NCBI GenBank assembly: GCA_016745035.1
Contig: JADGDE010000001.1
Span: 125,857-189,856, forward strand
Origin: Thiotrichales bacterium
GTDB lineage: Bacteria; Pseudomonadota; Gammaproteobacteria; Beggiatoales; Beggiatoaceae
DNA length: 64,000 bases
Direction: 5' to 3'
The notes under the pieces were generated by a model. That model saw only the letters and a program-made list of their open reading frames with translations, made no database searches and had not been told where the DNA came from. Of the stretch, positions 18,993-40,463 are shown one piece after another. Within the stretch, counting starts at the first letter, position 1. Each line of letters opens with the position of its first letter. The position numbers and the translations under genes are program-made.

Positions 18993-20183
18993 ATGAAAAT
19001 AATGCAGCATAGAATTTTTAAATGGAAAGATGGTTTTTTTTTCATATTTTTAATTTTCTTCACAGTCAATGCTTTTTTATTAATTACAATTTTTTTTACA
19101 AAAAATGAGTACAAGGAAAACATGAGGAAATTACCCTCAATAGAGTTTAAATTCACACCTTCAAAACAAGAAGAAATTCTTGATACAAAATGGTTGAATC
19201 CTGGTGCGAGAATTTCAGTTAGAATTTTTTCTAAAAATTATCGTGAAATTTTATCTTTATCAAAAGACTTAAACAATAAAAAAACAACATATGAATTATG
19301 GAAGGAAAATGGAAAACATACTTCAGACGTTGATAAATATTTTAATTTATCAGTAGTTGCTGGTGATATTTTTTCATCATATTTAATTATTAATGATGCT
19401 ATAAAAGAAGATAACACATATGCCGATCTATGGTTGCATAATTTAACGAATACATATTGGCAATTAACAAATGAATACCTTCATGAGTTAGATTTTGGTA
19501 GAGCTTATCATTTTAATCAGTTGTACTTATCTTTATCATCAAAAATGCTATCATCGCAGAATTTAAGTGCCCCAAAAGAGTCTGAAAGAAATAGAACTTT
19601 AGCATACATTCTACAAAGAGAATTTAAAACACATAGAATATATAGTTTATGCAGCAAACCTGGTATAAGCAATTCTTTTGGCAGTTTATTGGGGGGCGAA
19701 TGGGGGGATAAAATAGAATTAAATGATTCACGATATTTAACCCTTAGAAGAGAGAAAAATAAAAAAATATATTGTAATAATAAAAACACAAGATATATAA
19801 ATTATGAAATAGAAATAAAAAGTTTAAACAATAAAAAGGATATGAAATCATGTAATTTATTTGGCTTAGAATGCACTTATAATTATTTGTTAGATAAAAT
19901 AATAAAAGGCAATAATTTTCAATCAAATGAAATTATAACCTTCATAAATAAATGCTCTTACCTTTCCGATGATATTGTTTATATGTACATTAAAAAGTCA
20001 CTTGCAGATATGGATTTTAATTTTGATATAAAAGTTATAAAAAGTTTTTTTTCTTGTCGAATAAAAAAAGAAGATTTTGATTATTTTATATATATAAAAA
20101 ATATTGTAAATGACATCTGTAATAAAAATAAATTTCAAAAAAAAATTCCATATAAAACCAAGGGAATATGCGATATTATATGA
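18993..20183 (+). CDS. AT-rich membrane-anchored protein of unknown function
   Basis: A 396-residue protein with one N-terminal membrane segment (about residues 12-33) and a long polar C-terminal part rich in Lys, Asn and Ile. No family was recognised. Base composition is far more AT-rich than the flanking genes, as is that of the next gene, so the pair looks acquired by transfer. Its stop overlaps the next start as ATGA, indicating a two-gene operon. The single anchor with a large soluble domain would place most of it in the periplasm if the N-terminus is inside. Confidence 0.65.
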   Translation: MKIMQHRIFKWKDGFFFIFLIFFTVNAFLLITIFFTKNEYKENMRKLPSIEFKFTPSKQEEILDTKWLNPGARISVRIFSKNYREILSLSKDLNNKKTTYELWKENGKHTSDVDKYFNLSVVAGDIFSSYLIINDAIKEDNTYADLWLHNLTNTYWQLTNEYLHELDFGRAYHFNQLYLSLSSKMLSSQNLSAPKESERNRTLAYILQREFKTHRIYSLCSKPGISNSFGSLLGGEWGDKIELNDSRYLTLRREKNKKIYCNNKNTRYINYEIEIKSLNNKKDMKSCNLFGLECTYNYLLDKIIKGNNFQSNEIITFINKCSYLSDDIVYMYIKKSLADMDFNFDIKVIKSFFSCRIKKEDFDYFIYIKNIVNDICNKNKFQKKIPYKTKGICDII

Positions 20184-21136
20184 AAAATATAATAAACTTA
20201 ATAGTGATTTTATTTATACCAATAATAACTCTTTATATTTCAGATAGGCGTGCTTTTCATATAGCTAAAGAGTTTATATATTTTGAATTTAGTTCAACCT
20301 TTTTTTACTTGATAGCTGTTGGCATATTTGTGTTAGTTTTTTTCTTAAAAAAAGCAAAAAAATTAAGGTCAACCACTCTTAATTTTAAGGCTATAATAAA
20401 TAAAAACAAATCAGAAACATTTCTTCTTATTTTAATAAGTTTATGTATTTTATATTTATATTTTGACTATAAATATAAAATATATAGTGAAACACATCAT
20501 CAGTTACTAGCATTGAAAAACCTTGAGTCAGGAGAGTTTAGAAAGGCGAAGTTATTATGTGAATGGTATACAAAAATATATCCCCAAAGATCTATTGATT
20601 CTTTGTATCCAGATCCTTTTTGCTTACCTGTACTAAAAGACTTAGAAAAAATGAGAATCATTGATAAATATCTTAAATATTACCAATCTGGTGTTGGTAA
20701 TATTGAAGGGTATTCAATACCTGTTGAATGGAATTCAAAGAGATTCTCTAGATACATAACGGATAAATTATCAGGGAATCAAAATTTAAAAATTGATGAT
20801 TATATAATGGAAGTTAAACCACACCCTATGAAAGAAAGTCTCTTTTTCCCTCGTTTTACTTCAAAGGACTTAAACCAAAAAACATCTTTCCAAAATAAAA
20901 ACTATAAATGCTTAAAAGATATTCAAATTGCTTCTTTTTCAAAAAAAAATAATGCAGAAAGTACTCTAAATTTTCTAAATGAAAATGGATATACTTCCAT
21001 TATAATAAAGAAAGTTAAAGTTAAAGAAAAATATTTCTATAGAATTATAATTCCATGCATTAAAAGTCAAGAAGAAATTGATAAATATATTTATAATTTA
21101 AAAGAAAAAGGTTTTCACAAAGCTTTTCCAAAATAA
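20180..21136 (+). CDS. AT-rich membrane protein with C-terminal SPOR-like domain
   Basis: About 318 residues. Three hydrophobic segments lie in the first 105 residues. A soluble part follows, ending in a region resembling a SPOR repeat (IQIASFSKKNNAEST, then a Tyr-Phe-Tyr-Arg-Ile-Ile strand and the closing LKEKGFHKAF). SPOR domains bind denuded septal peptidoglycan. ATG 20180 is chosen because it overlaps the upstream stop as ATGA; an ATG 12 bases earlier is possible. Extreme AT content points to horizontal origin. The pairing with the single-anchor gene upstream suggests an envelope-associated complex. Confidence 0.65.
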   Translation: MKNIINLIVILFIPIITLYISDRRAFHIAKEFIYFEFSSTFFYLIAVGIFVLVFFLKKAKKLRSTTLNFKAIINKNKSETFLLILISLCILYLYFDYKYKIYSETHHQLLALKNLESGEFRKAKLLCEWYTKIYPQRSIDSLYPDPFCLPVLKDLEKMRIIDKYLKYYQSGVGNIEGYSIPVEWNSKRFSRYITDKLSGNQNLKIDDYIMEVKPHPMKESLFFPRFTSKDLNQKTSFQNKNYKCLKDIQIASFSKKNNAESTLNFLNENGYTSIIIKKVKVKEKYFYRIIIPCIKSQEEIDKYIYNLKEKGFHKAFPK

Positions 21137-26087: not shown

Positions 26088-26219
26088 CTGATGTTACGCA
26101 AAGGCTTCTTTTTCTGCCTTAAGGGCAGAAAAAACCGCCATTACTGCACAGCTAAGCTTCACTAGGCAGGTGGAAAATCACACTATTGTGATAAAAACCG
26201 GCTTAGTGCGTAACATCAG
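26088..26219. repeat. TGATGTTACGCA palindromic element, copy 1 (132 bp)
   Basis: Ends ctgatgttacgca and tgcgtaacatcag are inverted repeats. Body blocks aaggcttcttt, accgcca and ggcaggtggaaaa are shared with five other copies in this window. It lies 94 bp upstream of the next gene's start, and its open frame runs into that gene in frame. Confidence 0.85.
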
Positions 26220-26313
26220 CTACTTAGCCTTTGGGTTAAAAACCACCGCTTTACAGCAAAACGTTGCTTACGCGACAATAGCCCGCTTATACATCGAACA
26301 GAAAGGATTGATT

Positions 26314-27465
26314 ATGCAAAATGGCCCCCGCCTTATTAATACGCCATTTCGACCCATTGAAGTAGCTGTACCAGAGGGTGTTAGCCCCAATGAGTTTTTT
26401 AATAGTGCCGAAAACTTAAAAAATTTACGTCAAGAAAATGGTTTATTGGATTCGCTCGAAGGCTTGTTAATGTACCGTAAGGCCATCGGTCATAGTCTCG
26501 AATTTGATACCTCGATTATGTATAACACCGCGCAACGTATTCTCAATCCTTTGGGTCGCCCAGTGCGTCACGACCAAGTGCCAGATATGACCAAACGGGT
26601 ATGGACAGACATGAGTACCTTAATTATCGAGTATATGCTGGAAAAATACCCCGATCCCGATAAAGCCTTGGTCTTGTGTGGCGAAGCGAGTTTAGACCCC
26701 ACATGGCCGCTTAATAAGCCCGGTGTGCCCAGTATTCGCATGATTCACAATCATTTTGTTGTTTTTCCGAAAACCACGCTCAAAAAAGCCGAATTGGCTG
26801 ACCCCAATAATCCCAACCTCACCGACGGCGGTCATCACAACTTGTTTTATCGCTGTCTGGATGAAGTCTATCAGCGCTTTTTTGATGCAATTAATTTACA
26901 AGTATTAAAACCACTTGGTTGTGATGATGCCACCATTTCTTTAACCACCTATCCAAAAGGCTTGCCGAGTTGGGAAGTCCAAGGTGGTGTCGATGCTTTG
27001 CGTAAGCCTGAGTTTTGGATCGAGTATGAACTGATCTTAAAAGGCTTTTTAGATTTTTATCGTACCTTTTTCCGCCAAATTTCCACGGGCAATGCCGAAA
27101 TGCCGGATAACAGCTATTTCCCCGATCATATTGCCAATATTTTGCATTCGGATGTGTCTTTCCACCGCACCGCGCGCGATATTCGCCATCGCGTCACTTG
27201 CGACCCACAGTTTGCCAATCAAATTCGTTGGGAACCCGCTTACAAACAATTATTGTATCGCGATGATAAAGGGCGTTTAATCGTCACCATTAGCCAAAAC
27301 TCGGTAGGTAATGCGATTACTGAATTATTGGGCATTGTGGTTAAGCGGGCTGAGGATGCCGAGGCGTATAAAAAAGCTGAACCCGCTTTACTGGATAAAC
27401 TCTTTGAAGTTCGGGATCGTTTGGTCGCGGCTGATTTGGGTTGGGCATTGAAAGGTTTGGGTTGA
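26314..27465 (+). CDS. Conserved protein of unknown function with HNHF motif
   Basis: A 383-residue soluble protein starting MQNGPRL, with AGAAAGGA upstream. A longer open frame begins in the repeat element upstream but those residues are element-derived. It contains RMIHNHFVVFP near residue 150 and many conserved-looking His and Asp residues (DGGHHNLFYR, FPDHIANILHSDVSFHRTAR). The HNHF patch is reminiscent of HIT-like nucleotide transferases, but I do not recognise the family and assign no function. It is followed directly by the origin-like region. Confidence 0.6.
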   Translation: MQNGPRLINTPFRPIEVAVPEGVSPNEFFNSAENLKNLRQENGLLDSLEGLLMYRKAIGHSLEFDTSIMYNTAQRILNPLGRPVRHDQVPDMTKRVWTDMSTLIIEYMLEKYPDPDKALVLCGEASLDPTWPLNKPGVPSIRMIHNHFVVFPKTTLKKAELADPNNPNLTDGGHHNLFYRCLDEVYQRFFDAINLQVLKPLGCDDATISLTTYPKGLPSWEVQGGVDALRKPEFWIEYELILKGFLDFYRTFFRQISTGNAEMPDNSYFPDHIANILHSDVSFHRTARDIRHRVTCDPQFANQIRWEPAYKQLLYRDDKGRLIVTISQNSVGNAITELLGIVVKRAEDAEAYKKAEPALLDKLFEVRDRLVAADLGWALKGLG

Positions 27466-27514
27466 TAAGACCCGGTGGTTTTAGGACATTGCCCCCAAGT
27501 GATGTCCTATAGGT

Positions 27515-27790
27515 TTATATATTAATATATATCAATGTAATTATTATTATTAAGTTGAATGATTTGTTGGATAACTTTTTTTAACCTTTAATAATCAATT
27601 GGTTAATAAGTAAATAGCGTTGGATAACTGTTGCATAAGTGTTGGATAAGCTGTGAATAAGTGACCAACTTATCCAACAGAGATGGTTTTGTATTTGAAG
27701 CTTGGAAACAGTTATTAAGTTATCCAACAAGTTATGCAACAAAAATTATAAGTTATCCAACAGATTTCTTAAGTTATACAACGCCTCTGT
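27515..27790. other. oriC: Candidate replication origin: AT-rich stretch plus ten DnaA-box-like 9-mers
   Basis: An AT-rich block (27515-27555) is followed by 9-mers of consensus TTATNCAAC. On the minus strand they lie at 27566, 27619, 27630 and 27641, plus one perfect DnaA box (TTATTCACA) at 27652-27660. On the plus strand they lie at 27670, 27720, 27732, 27753 and 27774. The four from 27619 to 27652 are spaced exactly 11 bp, one helical turn. The two arms face each other. Gene orientation changes from mostly leftward to mostly rightward here, and mnmG, an oriC neighbour in many gammaproteobacteria, is 2.5 kb away. The TTATNCAAC form is unusual; a regulator-binding cluster is the alternative. 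Confidence 0.6.
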
Positions 27791-27800
27791 TATAATGCGT
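27770..27800 (+). promoter_or_regulatory. Promoter of the DUF354 gene, overlapping the last origin box
   Basis: A perfect TATAAT near 27790 lies about 40 bases before the ATG at 27836, with a TTATAC-like -35 hexamer inside the box at 27774-27782. Binding at the boxes would be expected to affect this promoter. Confidence 0.5.
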
Positions 27801-27835
27801 GCAATTATAGTTCGCTTGCCTTAGGAAACATACTC

Positions 27836-28876
27836 ATGGCTTTCACCTTTTGGTTTGATTTAGAAAATGCGCCCGATGTTTTATTTTTTGAACCCTTGGC
27901 GACCGAATTACGCCGTTTAGGTCATACCGTACACATTACTTCTCGGGCTTATTCTAATGTGCCTGAACTGGCTGAAATTTACGGTATTCCTAGCACTATT
28001 TTAGGTAAGCATGGCGGTGAGAAAAAACTCGGTAAAATTGTCGCTGGGCTAAATCGCAGTCGACAAATGATTCGTTGGGCGCGGGGAAAAAACATTGACC
28101 TAGCCGTGGGCTTTGGCTCGCAACCGATGGCGGTTGCCTGTGGTGCATGGCTGAAAATGCCCAATATCACTGTCGATGATTATGAGCACACCATTGTCTC
28201 GGTCTTAAACCGTTATTGTGATTTGCGTTATGTCCCTGAAGAAGTGCCTTTGCAAGTCTTGCTCGATAAAGGCACGCCAGAGAAAAAATTGCGTTTTTAT
28301 ACAGGCTTAAAAGAAGAAGTCTATACCGGGGTTTATGAACCGGATTTGAGCTTAAAACAAAAACTCAAACTCCCCGAGGATAAAATTATCGTTACCATGC
28401 GCCCACCGGCAACGCTGGCGCATTATCATGACCACACCGGAGAGGTGATTTGTAACCTCACCCTCGAGCATATTGCCCAACGCGATGATGTGGTTTGTGT
28501 CTTGATGACGCGGGACAATGACCATACCTTTGATGAGTATCTCAAATATGACAATATCCAGCCCTTACCTTTCCCGGTCAAAGGACTGGACTTGTTAGCG
28601 ATTTCTGATTTGGTTATCAGCGGCGGTGGGACGATGGTACGTGAAGCCGTCGCTCTCGGTATCCCCGCTTATTCAACCTTTACCGGTGAGCAAGGCGCGG
28701 TTGACCTAGAACTCAGCGCTCAAGGGCGTTTAACCTTGGTACGCCGTGAAGAAGATGCTGACAAGATCATCTTACAAAAACGCCAAGATTATAATCTCAG
28801 CGATTATCAACGCACCGATGTGCGCGACTTTTTTGTTGCAGAATTTATCCGTTTGGCACAAGAGGGACAAGCCTAA
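27836..28876 (+). CDS. DUF354-family protein (glycosyltransferase-like fold)
   Basis: A 346-residue protein matching the DUF354 family: WFDLENAPDVLFFEPLATEL at the N-terminus, then SRAYSNVPELAEIYGI, VGFGSQPMAV, ITVDDYEH, VTMRPPA and the closing VISGGGTMVREAVALGIPAY motif, which resembles the nucleotide-sugar site of GT-B glycosyltransferases. Members occur in polysaccharide loci, but no reaction is established for most. It is the first gene rightward of the candidate origin, followed after three bases by a membrane protein gene. Confidence 0.75.
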   Translation: MAFTFWFDLENAPDVLFFEPLATELRRLGHTVHITSRAYSNVPELAEIYGIPSTILGKHGGEKKLGKIVAGLNRSRQMIRWARGKNIDLAVGFGSQPMAVACGAWLKMPNITVDDYEHTIVSVLNRYCDLRYVPEEVPLQVLLDKGTPEKKLRFYTGLKEEVYTGVYEPDLSLKQKLKLPEDKIIVTMRPPATLAHYHDHTGEVICNLTLEHIAQRDDVVCVLMTRDNDHTFDEYLKYDNIQPLPFPVKGLDLLAISDLVISGGGTMVREAVALGIPAYSTFTGEQGAVDLELSAQGRLTLVRREEDADKIILQKRQDYNLSDYQRTDVRDFFVAEFIRLAQEGQA

Positions 28877-30353: not shown

Positions 30354-32219
30354 ATGGATTATCCCGATAAATTTGATGTCATCGTCATTGGTGGTGGGCA
30401 CGCAGGTACAGAAGCTGCCCTTGTTGCTGCGCGCATGGGGGCAAAAACCCTATTATTGACCCACAATATCGACACTCTCGGACAAATGTCCTGCAACCCG
30501 GCGATAGGCGGCATCGGTAAAGGACACCTCGTCAAAGAAATTGATGCCCTCGGCGGTATCATGGCAAAAGCGGCGGATAAAAGCGGGATTCAATTTCGCA
30601 CCCTCAACGCCCGCAAAGGCCCTGCGGTACGCGCAACACGGGCACAAATCGACCGCGCCCTGTATCGCCAATCGATTCACGATGCCCTCGAGACCCAAGA
30701 AAACCTACAATTGTTTCAACAAGCGGTGGATGACTTCATTATTGAAGGCGAGCGTATCACAGGAGTGATAACGCAAATGGGACTGCGTTTTCAGGCAAAA
30801 ACCGTGGTGCTGACCGTGGGGACTTTTTTAGACGGGCTGATACACATAGGGCTGTCCAATTACTCCGGCGGACGGGCTGGTGATCCACCCGCACAAGCCC
30901 TTGCTGAGCGCCTGCGGGCATTACCGTTTCGGGTTGAGCGCCTCAAAACCGGCACACCACCACGAATAGACAAACGCAGTATCGACTACAGCCGCCTCCA
31001 AGCCCAACCGGGGGATACGCCGTTGCCGGTGTTTTCCTTCACAGGTGATGCCAGCGAGCACCCCGAACAACTGCCCTGCCACATTACCTACACTAACGAA
31101 AAAACCCACGAAATTATTCGCCAAAGCCTCGACCGCTCGCCCTTGTATAGCGGCGTTATCGACAGCATTGGCCCGCGTTATTGCCCCTCGGTAGAAGACA
31201 AAATTGTCCGTTTTGCTGACAAAGACAGTCACCAAATTTTCATCGAACCCGAAGGACTGCACAGCCAAGAAATTTACCCTAATGGCATTTCCACCAGCTT
31301 GCCCTTTGATGCCCAAATTGCGCTGGTGCGCTCCATCGAAGGCTTTGAAAACGCCTATATCACCCGTCCCGGCTATGCCATCGAATACGACTTTTTTGAC
31401 CCACGGGACTTGCTACCCTCGCTAGAAACCCGCTACATTGAAGGCTTGTTTTTCGCCGGACAAATCAACGGCACGACAGGCTATGAAGAAGCGGGCGCAC
31501 AAGGGCTGATTGCCGGCATGAATGCCGCCTTACAAGTGCAAGGCAAACCTAGCTGGACACCCCGTCGGGATGAGGCGTATATCGGCGTGTTGATTGATGA
31601 CTTAATCACTCAGGGCACGAACGAACCTTATCGGATGTTTACCAGCCGCGCCGAGTATCGTTTACTGCTGCGCGAGGACAATGCCGATTTGCGCCTCAGC
31701 GATAAGGCTATTGAGCTAGGCTTATTAGATAGCGCTCAAGCCCAAGCGTTTCAGACCAAGAAAGCTGCGATTGCCGCTGAACAACAGCGCCTACAAAACA
31801 CGCTGTTTTATGCTGATGATACGGCGGTTAATGCCCTGTTGGATAAGCCCCTACGCCGTGAAGTCCGAGCGCTGGAGCTGTTGGCGCGCCCACACATTAA
31901 CTATGTGGACTTATGCCAGTTGGAACAATTAAAACCGGGCGTAAACGACCCACGTGTGGCTGAACAAGTGGAAATCCAAGCCAAGTATCAAGGCTATATC
32001 GAGCGCCAACAAGCCGATATTGAACGCAACCTACGCCACGAACAAACCGCCTTGCCTAAAAATATCGACTACTACCAAGTCTCAGGCTTATCCAACGAAG
32101 TCTGTCAAAAACTCAAAGACCACAAACCTAGCAACCTCGGACAAGCGGCGCGTATCTCCGGTGTGACCCCTGCGGCGATTTCCTTATTGCGGGTGCATCT
32201 AAAAAAACACGGTAATTAA
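30354..32219 (+). CDS. mnmG: tRNA uridine 5-carboxymethylaminomethyl modification enzyme MnmG
   Basis: A full-length 621-residue GidA/MnmG. With MnmE it installs the cmnm5 group at wobble U34 of several tRNAs using FAD, methylene-THF and glycine or ammonium. Visible: FAD motif [12 protein letters not shown] at residues 10-21, [36 protein letters not shown], the [15 protein letters not shown] block and the C-terminal helical region ending VSLLRVHL-like. In most gammaproteobacteria rsmG follows; here a minus-strand gene and a repeat follow instead. Confidence 0.97.
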
Positions 32220-38507: not shown

Positions 38508-40463
38508 ATGATAATACGCAGCATTATCAACCTATGCTTGATGTTTGCACTCACCCTTGGGGCTGGGCAAACAATGGCAGCAGAGGAGAGCAAGGCAAGT
38601 GCCGAGCCCAGTGTCAAAAAGCTCATACCCAATAAATCCTGTAATAAATGTCATGATGACGAAGATGAAAAAATTTGGGAATATGATGATGGCTCCGAAA
38701 AATTTATCTATGTAAATCCAGAAAAATTTGAAGCCAGTGTCCATGGCGAACAAAACTGCGTTGGTTGCCATAGCAATGTCACCTTAAAAAAAGGCGAACA
38801 CGACGAAAAATTGCCGATCACCGTTGGCTGTGTCAAATGTCACACCGAAAAATGGGAAGAGCAAAAAGATAACCCCGACCCCGAACATAAACGTCTAGGC
38901 GTGGTGATGGAGCAAATCGACAGCTATATGCACTCGGTTCATGCTCGCCCAAATATCAACGATCAATCCAAAACCAACGCGACCTGTCATGACTGCCATG
39001 ATGCCCATAATGTTGGTACATTGGGTAGCACCCAACGCGCTGAACATCGCTTGGAAAACCCTGAAGTGTGTGGTAAGTGTCATGAAAAAGAAAAAGAAGC
39101 CTATCTGACTTCAATTCATGGTAAAGAAATCACCGAAAAACAAAATACTGATGCGGCGGTTTGTTCTGATTGTCACACCACGCATGATATTAAATCTCCT
39201 GATGGCGACGAAGCCAAACTTGCCGTGACCAAAAACTGCGGTAGTTGTCATGAAGACTCCCTCAAAACCTATTTGAGTTCCTATCATGGACAAGTCAATC
39301 GCTTAGGCTATACCAATACCGCCAAATGCTATGATTGCCACGGCAGCCATGATTTGAAAAAAATTGATGACCCCACCTCGATGGTACATGCCAATAACCG
39401 TTTAGAAACCTGCCAGAGCTGCCATGAAGATGCGCCAGAGGGTTTCCTAAGCTTCCATGCGCACGGCAATGCTAACGACTTTGAGCGTTATCCGGGTATT
39501 TTCCTCACCGCTAAATTCATGAACTTGCTGATCATCGGCGTATTCCTATTCTTCTGGACCCATGTGATGTTATGGTTCTATCGTGAATACCAAGATCGTC
39601 GTCAAGGCAAAGGTTATGTGCCACCAGCGCATATTGCTGAAGATGCGGTTTACTTCCGCCGCTTTAGTGCCACTTGGCGGATTATCCATCTCTTGTTTGC
39701 TATGAGTACCATGACCTTGGTGCTTACTGGTTCTACGTTGTTATTCTCCCATACCGAATGGGCAGCCATTGTGATGAAACTCCTCGGCGGCCCGCAAATC
39801 GAGGCGATTATTCACCGTACTGCTGCAACTGTGTGGCTGGGTGTGTTCTTCGTCCATGTGATGATAGCTAGCTATAATGTCTTTATTGCTAACCGTAAAA
39901 CCTTCCGTTGGTTTGGTCCCACGTCGATGCTACCGAATTGGCAAGATTGGCACGATTTGAAAGCCATGTTCCGCTGGTTCTTTGGTAAAGCCGAACGGCC
40001 TGAGTTTGACCGTTGGTCTTATTGGCAAAAATTTGATTACTGGGCACCATTCTGGGGTGCGGGCGTGATCGGTTTAAGTGGCTTGATGTTATTCTTCCCC
40101 ACTAAAACCGCGATTATTTTGCCAGGCTTTGTCTTTAACATTGCCACCATTATCCATGCGGAAGAAGCCTTGCTTGCAACCATCTTCTTGTTCACGGTGC
40201 ATTTCTTTAATGCCCATTTCCGCCCGGACAAGTTCCCCATGAGTACCACTATCTTTACTGGCGCGATTCCTCTCGATGAGTTCAAACATGAACACAAACT
40301 TGAGTACGAACGCTTGAAAGCCAGTGGCGAATTGGAGAAATATTTGGTTAAGAAACCTTCCAAAGCGATGGCAACAGGCTCCAAACTCTTGGGTGCGTTG
40401 CTTATCTTTGCAGGCTTGACCTTGCTGACCTTAGTGCTTATTGGTTATTTGACCATGCATTAA
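38508..40463 (+). CDS. Nine-haem cytochrome c fused to a b561-type membrane module
   Basis: A 651-residue protein with a signal peptide (residues 1-24) and nine CXXCH motifs between residues 45 and 306: CNKCH, CVGCH, CVKCH, CHDCH, CGKCH, CSDCH, CGSCH, CYDCH and CQSCH. From about residue 338 there are about five to six membrane helices with histidines typical of b-haem ligation (THVMLW, IIHLLFAM, IIHRTAATVW, FFVHVMI, IIHAEEALLA, FTVHFFNAHF). It should pass electrons between the quinol pool and periplasmic partners, as NrfH/NapC or Cyt-b561 multihaem systems do. Donor and acceptor are unknown. A GGAGGAA site precedes the ATG and a strong terminator follows. Confidence 0.88.
   Translation: MIIRSIINLCLMFALTLGAGQTMAAEESKASAEPSVKKLIPNKSCNKCHDDEDEKIWEYDDGSEKFIYVNPEKFEASVHGEQNCVGCHSNVTLKKGEHDEKLPITVGCVKCHTEKWEEQKDNPDPEHKRLGVVMEQIDSYMHSVHARPNINDQSKTNATCHDCHDAHNVGTLGSTQRAEHRLENPEVCGKCHEKEKEAYLTSIHGKEITEKQNTDAAVCSDCHTTHDIKSPDGDEAKLAVTKNCGSCHEDSLKTYLSSYHGQVNRLGYTNTAKCYDCHGSHDLKKIDDPTSMVHANNRLETCQSCHEDAPEGFLSFHAHGNANDFERYPGIFLTAKFMNLLIIGVFLFFWTHVMLWFYREYQDRRQGKGYVPPAHIAEDAVYFRRFSATWRIIHLLFAMSTMTLVLTGSTLLFSHTEWAAIVMKLLGGPQIEAIIHRTAATVWLGVFFVHVMIASYNVFIANRKTFRWFGPTSMLPNWQDWHDLKAMFRWFFGKAERPEFDRWSYWQKFDYWAPFWGAGVIGLSGLMLFFPTKTAIILPGFVFNIATIIHAEEALLATIFLFTVHFFNAHFRPDKFPMSTTIFTGAIPLDEFKHEHKLEYERLKASGELEKYLVKKPSKAMATGSKLLGALLIFAGLTLLTLVLIGYLTMH

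Follow-up and report, generated by a model that had tools for sequence, protein, structure and literature searches.

Few protein-DNA pairs of bacteria are as well conserved as DnaA and its box. In the oriC of E. coli, two oppositely oriented arrays have sites 2 bp apart, and an IHF site separates R1 from R5M (PMC4451416); measured from R1, IHF lies at +27, R5M at +55, R2 at +106 and R4 at +180. The 9-mer DnaA boxes tabulated in PMC4285127 vary at positions 2, 3 and 5, while the final CACA is kept. On the protein side, H434 and T435 are described as base-contacting residues of DnaA (PMC7561715), and the helix that holds them is reported to recognise the 3' half of each box (PMC5742627).

Here, we describe a locus at 27515-27782 of the window, a stretch of 64,000 nucleotides (C11:125857-189856) from a 4.18-Mb genome in 90 contigs, of which contig C11 accounts for 1,454,720 bp. 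The locus is probably an origin element of the E. coli oriC type at which replication depends on DnaA, and its boxes appear to have co-evolved with the DnaA of the same genome. It is a variant oriC-type element rather than a canonical oriC, because the canonical TTATNCACA expected of an E. coli-type origin is found in one of its ten boxes and because it stands alongside an altered DnaA. Several other marks of an E. coli-type oriC are present, namely an intergenic cluster of boxes, an adjoining AT-rich element, an IHF site between the R1-like and R5M-like boxes, and opposed arms, the left one phased at 11 bp.

Architecture of the array

The array itself (27566-27782) packs nine TTATNCAAC boxes and one TTATTCACA into 217 bp, five on the minus strand followed by five on the plus strand, and the special feature of these boxes is that positions 8-9 read AC, not CA. 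Sixteen copies of TTATNCAAC occur in the window as compared to 3.7 expected, a number reached in none of 100 shuffles, and a count per 400 bp along the whole contig gave 9 at the array and 2 at the next best place. The first-pass annotation had reported the nine boxes and the single exception, the 11-bp repeat of the boxes at 27619, 27630, 27641 and 27652, two facing arms with an AT-rich stretch, and a lack of GATC; all of this was borne out, the last for 27500-27840.

The order of sites follows E. coli oriC (R1-IHF-R5M-tau2-I1-I2-R2 / C3-C2-I3-C1-R4) closely. As in E. coli, an AT-rich stretch lies on the R1 side (27515-27565); this candidate duplex-unwinding element contains TTATTATTAAG at 27544-27554, and AT content reaches 85% over 60 bp from 27521. 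Beside it is the R1-like box TTATCCAAC (27566-27574, minus strand), taken as offset 0. An exact IHF consensus, AATCAATTGGTTA, is located at 27593-27605 on the plus strand, +27 from the R1-like box and thus at the E. coli distance; exact matches to this consensus occur at 0.19 per kb in the contig, which also encodes an IhfA homologue with 75% identity. The left arm (27619-27660, minus strand) is made of four boxes in strict 11-bp phase, TTATCCAAC at 27619, TTATGCAAC at 27630, TTATCCAAC at 27641 and TTATTCACA at 27652-27660, at offsets +53, +64, +75 and +86, and resembles the likewise 11-bp-phased R5M-tau2-I1-I2 of E. coli, with a step of 53 from R1 in place of 55. An R2-like box, TTATCCAAC, follows on the plus strand at 27670-27678 (+104, compared with +106 for R2), and the step from R5M to R2 measures 51 bp in either system. 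The right arm (27720-27782, plus strand) is inverted relative to the left, as in E. coli, and carries TTATCCAAC at 27720, TTATGCAAC at 27732, TTATCCAAC at 27753 and TTATACAAC at 27774.

The differences from E. coli oriC are also clear. The sites of the window array are all near-perfect TTATNCAAC, whereas E. coli has a few strong sites and many weak ones; the right arm, at +154, +166, +187 and +208 with spacings of 12, 21 and 21, extends beyond the +180 of R4; GATC is missing; and the genome holds a second copy.

The ten boxes lie between an ORF at 26170-27465 and a gene for a DUF354 protein at 27836-28876, which is outside the origin proper. Both are on the plus strand, contrary to the divergence of genes that had been claimed at the array, and the nearest change of gene direction is at about 25.9-26.2 kb in the window. 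The earlier mention of mnmG is correct as to position (30354-32219, plus strand, 2.5 kb downstream of the array), but the gene is a neighbour only and weak evidence of an origin, since the arrays of relatives have no common gene neighbourhood.

Elsewhere in the window, GC content drops to 0.25 at 19001-21000, as compared to about 0.43 nearby, across ORFs 18993-20183 and 20168-21136, and this segment is possibly foreign DNA. A 651-aa ORF at 38508-40463 resembles multihaem cytochrome c families, with weak matches only.

DnaA and arrays in the family

The genome encodes a single full-length DnaA, located on the same contig about 1.18 Mb from the array. The protein matches TIGR00362 over its whole length (518 bits, against a cut-off of 343.9) as well as PF11638, PF00308 and PF08299, which are the N-terminal, ATPase and HTH domains. 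It is DnaA by every test except the recognition-helix motif DH[ST]T, in place of which it reads DRST: Arg-Ser occupies the positions of His434-Thr435 (GGKDRSTV, GGRDHTTV in E. coli), and the recognition helix is GGKDRSTVLHSC here and GGRDHTTVLHAC in E. coli. When 369 gammaproteobacteria were searched with DNA patterns, the one for the Arg form matched a single genome, this one, and the one for the His form matched 300; both patterns need the preceding Phe-Gly-Gly, which leaves DnaAs that do not have it, for instance in G006 and G015, out of either count. The region upstream of dnaA, examined as a 4.4-kb locus, contains no exact TTATNCAAC or TTATNCACA.

We compared DnaA types and box ends in a family sample of 43 genomes from 25 genera; 16 of the genomes have DnaA. 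The family is probably Beggiatoaceae, for which PMC11172852 likewise gives 25 genera in GTDB. Its Arg434 proteins group together as a single clade (support 98/97). With array limits drawn by eye and boxes required to start TTWTNCA, the relatives with a His434 DnaA had boxes ending in CACA in 55 of 62 cases, while for G006 and G012, with Arg434-Thr435, the figure was 16 of 30, the remainder being mostly CACG or CACT and three CAAC. In the present genome, with Arg434-Ser435, CAAC ends 18 of the 20 boxes of both arrays and CACA one. These box ends fit a course in which the preference was first relaxed, with Arg434, and then fixed anew, the final state being represented by one genome only. The DnaA of G015 is also Arg434-Ser435, and the start of its helix differs through a deletion. 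With the patterns used, G015 yielded no array and neither did G013, G040 or G004, which have Arg434-Thr435, and no array lies alongside the DUF354 homologue of G015.

In several relatives with DnaA (G006, G012, G020, G023 and G024), the boxes are canonical or near-canonical and form opposed arrays phased at 11 bp, with a step of 54-55 bp to an R1-like box, and, with G005 included, the family arrays resemble the window array in their opposed arms and, mostly, in phasing and step. They differ from it in that their boxes mostly end in CACA and their gene neighbourhood is unlike that of the window; no synteny of arrays was seen among the relatives. The array on contig C92 of G005 (L207:5713-6335) is unusually large, with 21 DnaA boxes and a separate minus-strand block mostly 20-21 bp apart. 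A second motif, GTTACTAACA, lies between the DnaA boxes in 11-bp phase at L205, L206, L208 and L394 (G024, G041 and G009), for example as TTATCCACAAGTTACTAACAGGTTATCCACA.

Triplets of TTATNCAAC were also searched for in other genomes, in a collection that may omit the window's own genome. The best clustered among the matches listed repeat regularly in tandem, for the most part on a single strand, and none of these was origin-like.

The DnaA C-terminal domain has no match in 27 of the 43 family genomes, including 16 of the 31 of good quality; G002, for example, is a single contig of 4.8 Mb and 100% complete. Nor did the genomes without a DnaA match yield a convincing match to Hda or a convincing array of canonical boxes. 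Apparently, dnaA has been lost in many large genomes of this gammaproteobacterial family, which may be set against the cyanobacterial cases of PMC7198777: free-living bacteria without dnaA have been reported from cyanobacteria, with none known earlier according to that paper.

A second array and the role of the window copy

The first-pass annotation had named recurrence of the array at many loci as a sign against an origin. The array is unique within its contig, but a whole-genome search found one more TTATNCAAC array of the same layout at G000:C4:19129-19344, on a 67-kb contig. Read in the reverse direction, this array has its IHF consensus on the same strand as the window array, at +27, followed by boxes at +52, +73, +84 and +95, a first plus-strand box at +114 and a right arm spanning +163 to +207; its left arm is about one helical turn longer than that of the window array. 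In both copies TTATTATTAAG ends 11 bp ahead of the first box. The C4 boxes end in CAAC in nine of ten cases and in CACG in the other. Pairs of TTATNCACA within 30 bp were not found in this genome. Inverted copies of TTTTCCACC, about 400 bp apart (L198:10076 and L198:10475) and inside longer similar stretches, flank the C4 array.

An oriC with a DnaA preference other than that of E. coli had been proposed for the window array, and the oriC-like layout and the unusual residues at 434 and 435 support it well; it is not the only such array, no skew minimum marks it, and genes do not diverge there. GC skew shows neither a minimum at the array nor any regular trend across the 1.45-Mb contig, gene orientation along it likewise has no turning point, and dif site, KOPS and Chi-like polarity gave no clear signal there. 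No trend in GC skew was seen in the first 1.7 Mb sampled from G041, a closed relative.

If the window array is an origin element, the predicted sequence of events would be that DnaA binds the boxes, IHF bending brings R1 close to the R5M-like box, both arms are filled in a cooperative manner, and melting of the AT-rich stretch allows the helicase to be loaded. We infer that the window copy fires; it need not be the active origin, however, because a second, equally good array exists, and the origin may be the window array, the C4 array or both. The window array could instead be a control locus like datA or DARS that titrates DnaA, promotes its hydrolysis or reactivation, or controls the downstream operon, with the C4 copy as origin. 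The presence of two arrays favours such a role, as do the E. coli clusters of DnaA boxes with IHF that are described outside oriC in PMC5742627, and the position of the last box about 50 bp ahead of the DUF354 start codon, beside a TATAAT-like sequence. However, the window copy has all the oriC-like parts that C4 has, including the AT-rich stretch and IHF at +27, and no sequence feature puts C4 above it. We regard a control locus as a possibility of lesser weight. Much the same weight falls to the idea that both arrays fire, the two oriC-type origins either sharing one chromosome or lying on two replicons; this is a special case of the preferred origin reading, and our estimates for the two therefore overlap. 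Both copies are complete with their layout kept, array pairs also occur in G006, G020 and G024, and regular GC skew is missing, but flat skew has other causes, contigs C4 and C11 are unjoined so that a single replicon is not established, and G041 gave one array, a second candidate near 1955257 having been rejected as not an array.

More distant readings concern DnaA itself. Replication in this lineage might be largely DnaA-independent, as in some cyanobacteria, with the arrays as relics or purely regulatory sites. The flat skew and the many relatives without dnaA point this way, and irregular skew, polyploidy and lost DnaA-dependence go together in cyanobacteria according to PMC7198777; on the other side, the new sequence shared by 18 of the 20 boxes and the kept layout point to continued selection, and DnaA is intact with all its domains, which makes this reading improbable. 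Least probable by far is that the boxes serve another protein, such as a transcription factor or a plasmid-type Rep with iterons. The box does depart from the canonical one at two positions and its binding by DnaA is a prediction, but both copies follow the geometry of E. coli oriC, including IHF at +27, TTATTCACA and TTATCCACG are in register as array members, and relatives carry arrays of this kind made of canonical boxes. A DnaA-dependent origin element stays the probable reading of 27515-27782; against it stand the lack of a turning point in GC skew or gene orientation, the second array, and the fact that the box switch is seen in one genome only. For the lineage as a whole, DnaA-dependence is not to be assumed because many family members seem to be without dnaA.

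The box code in comparison with known variants

We infer from the paired changes in site and protein that AC at positions 8-9 of the boxes co-evolved with a DnaA carrying Arg-Ser for His434-Thr435. The DnaA of this genome would prefer TTATNCAAC, owing to Arg434-Ser435. Arginine commonly reads guanine, and with C in place of A9 the other strand offers a guanine for an arginine to read, which is a plausible chemical reason for the switch. The full combination, a box code switched at 8-9 from CA to AC via a tolerant Arg434 intermediate, two complete oriC-type origins per genome and DnaA lost in many family members, is tentative and, taken together, somewhat unlikely. A natural switch at these box positions, if true, with residues in DnaA that may compensate for it and with what looks like an intermediate in sister lineages, would open the evolution of initiator specificity to direct test by simple binding assays. 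In open-literature searches, which were not exhaustive, no paper surfaced that describes a CAAC box or an Arg434.

Other DnaA-binding loci and boxes share some of these features. The datA and DARS loci combine DnaA boxes with an IHF site outside oriC and are without an unwinding element; the window array has boxes and IHF, but an AT-rich stretch too. The variant boxes of Caulobacter (TGATCCACA), Helicobacter (TCATTCACA) and Mycobacterium and Streptomyces (TTGTCCACA) are like those described here in being 9-mers read by DnaA domain IV, while the 12-mer of Thermotoga (AAACCTACCACC) is a departure of another kind. The difference from the former is one of position: among the 9-mers tabulated in PMC4285127, the change is at position 2, 3 or 5, whereas here it is at 8-9.
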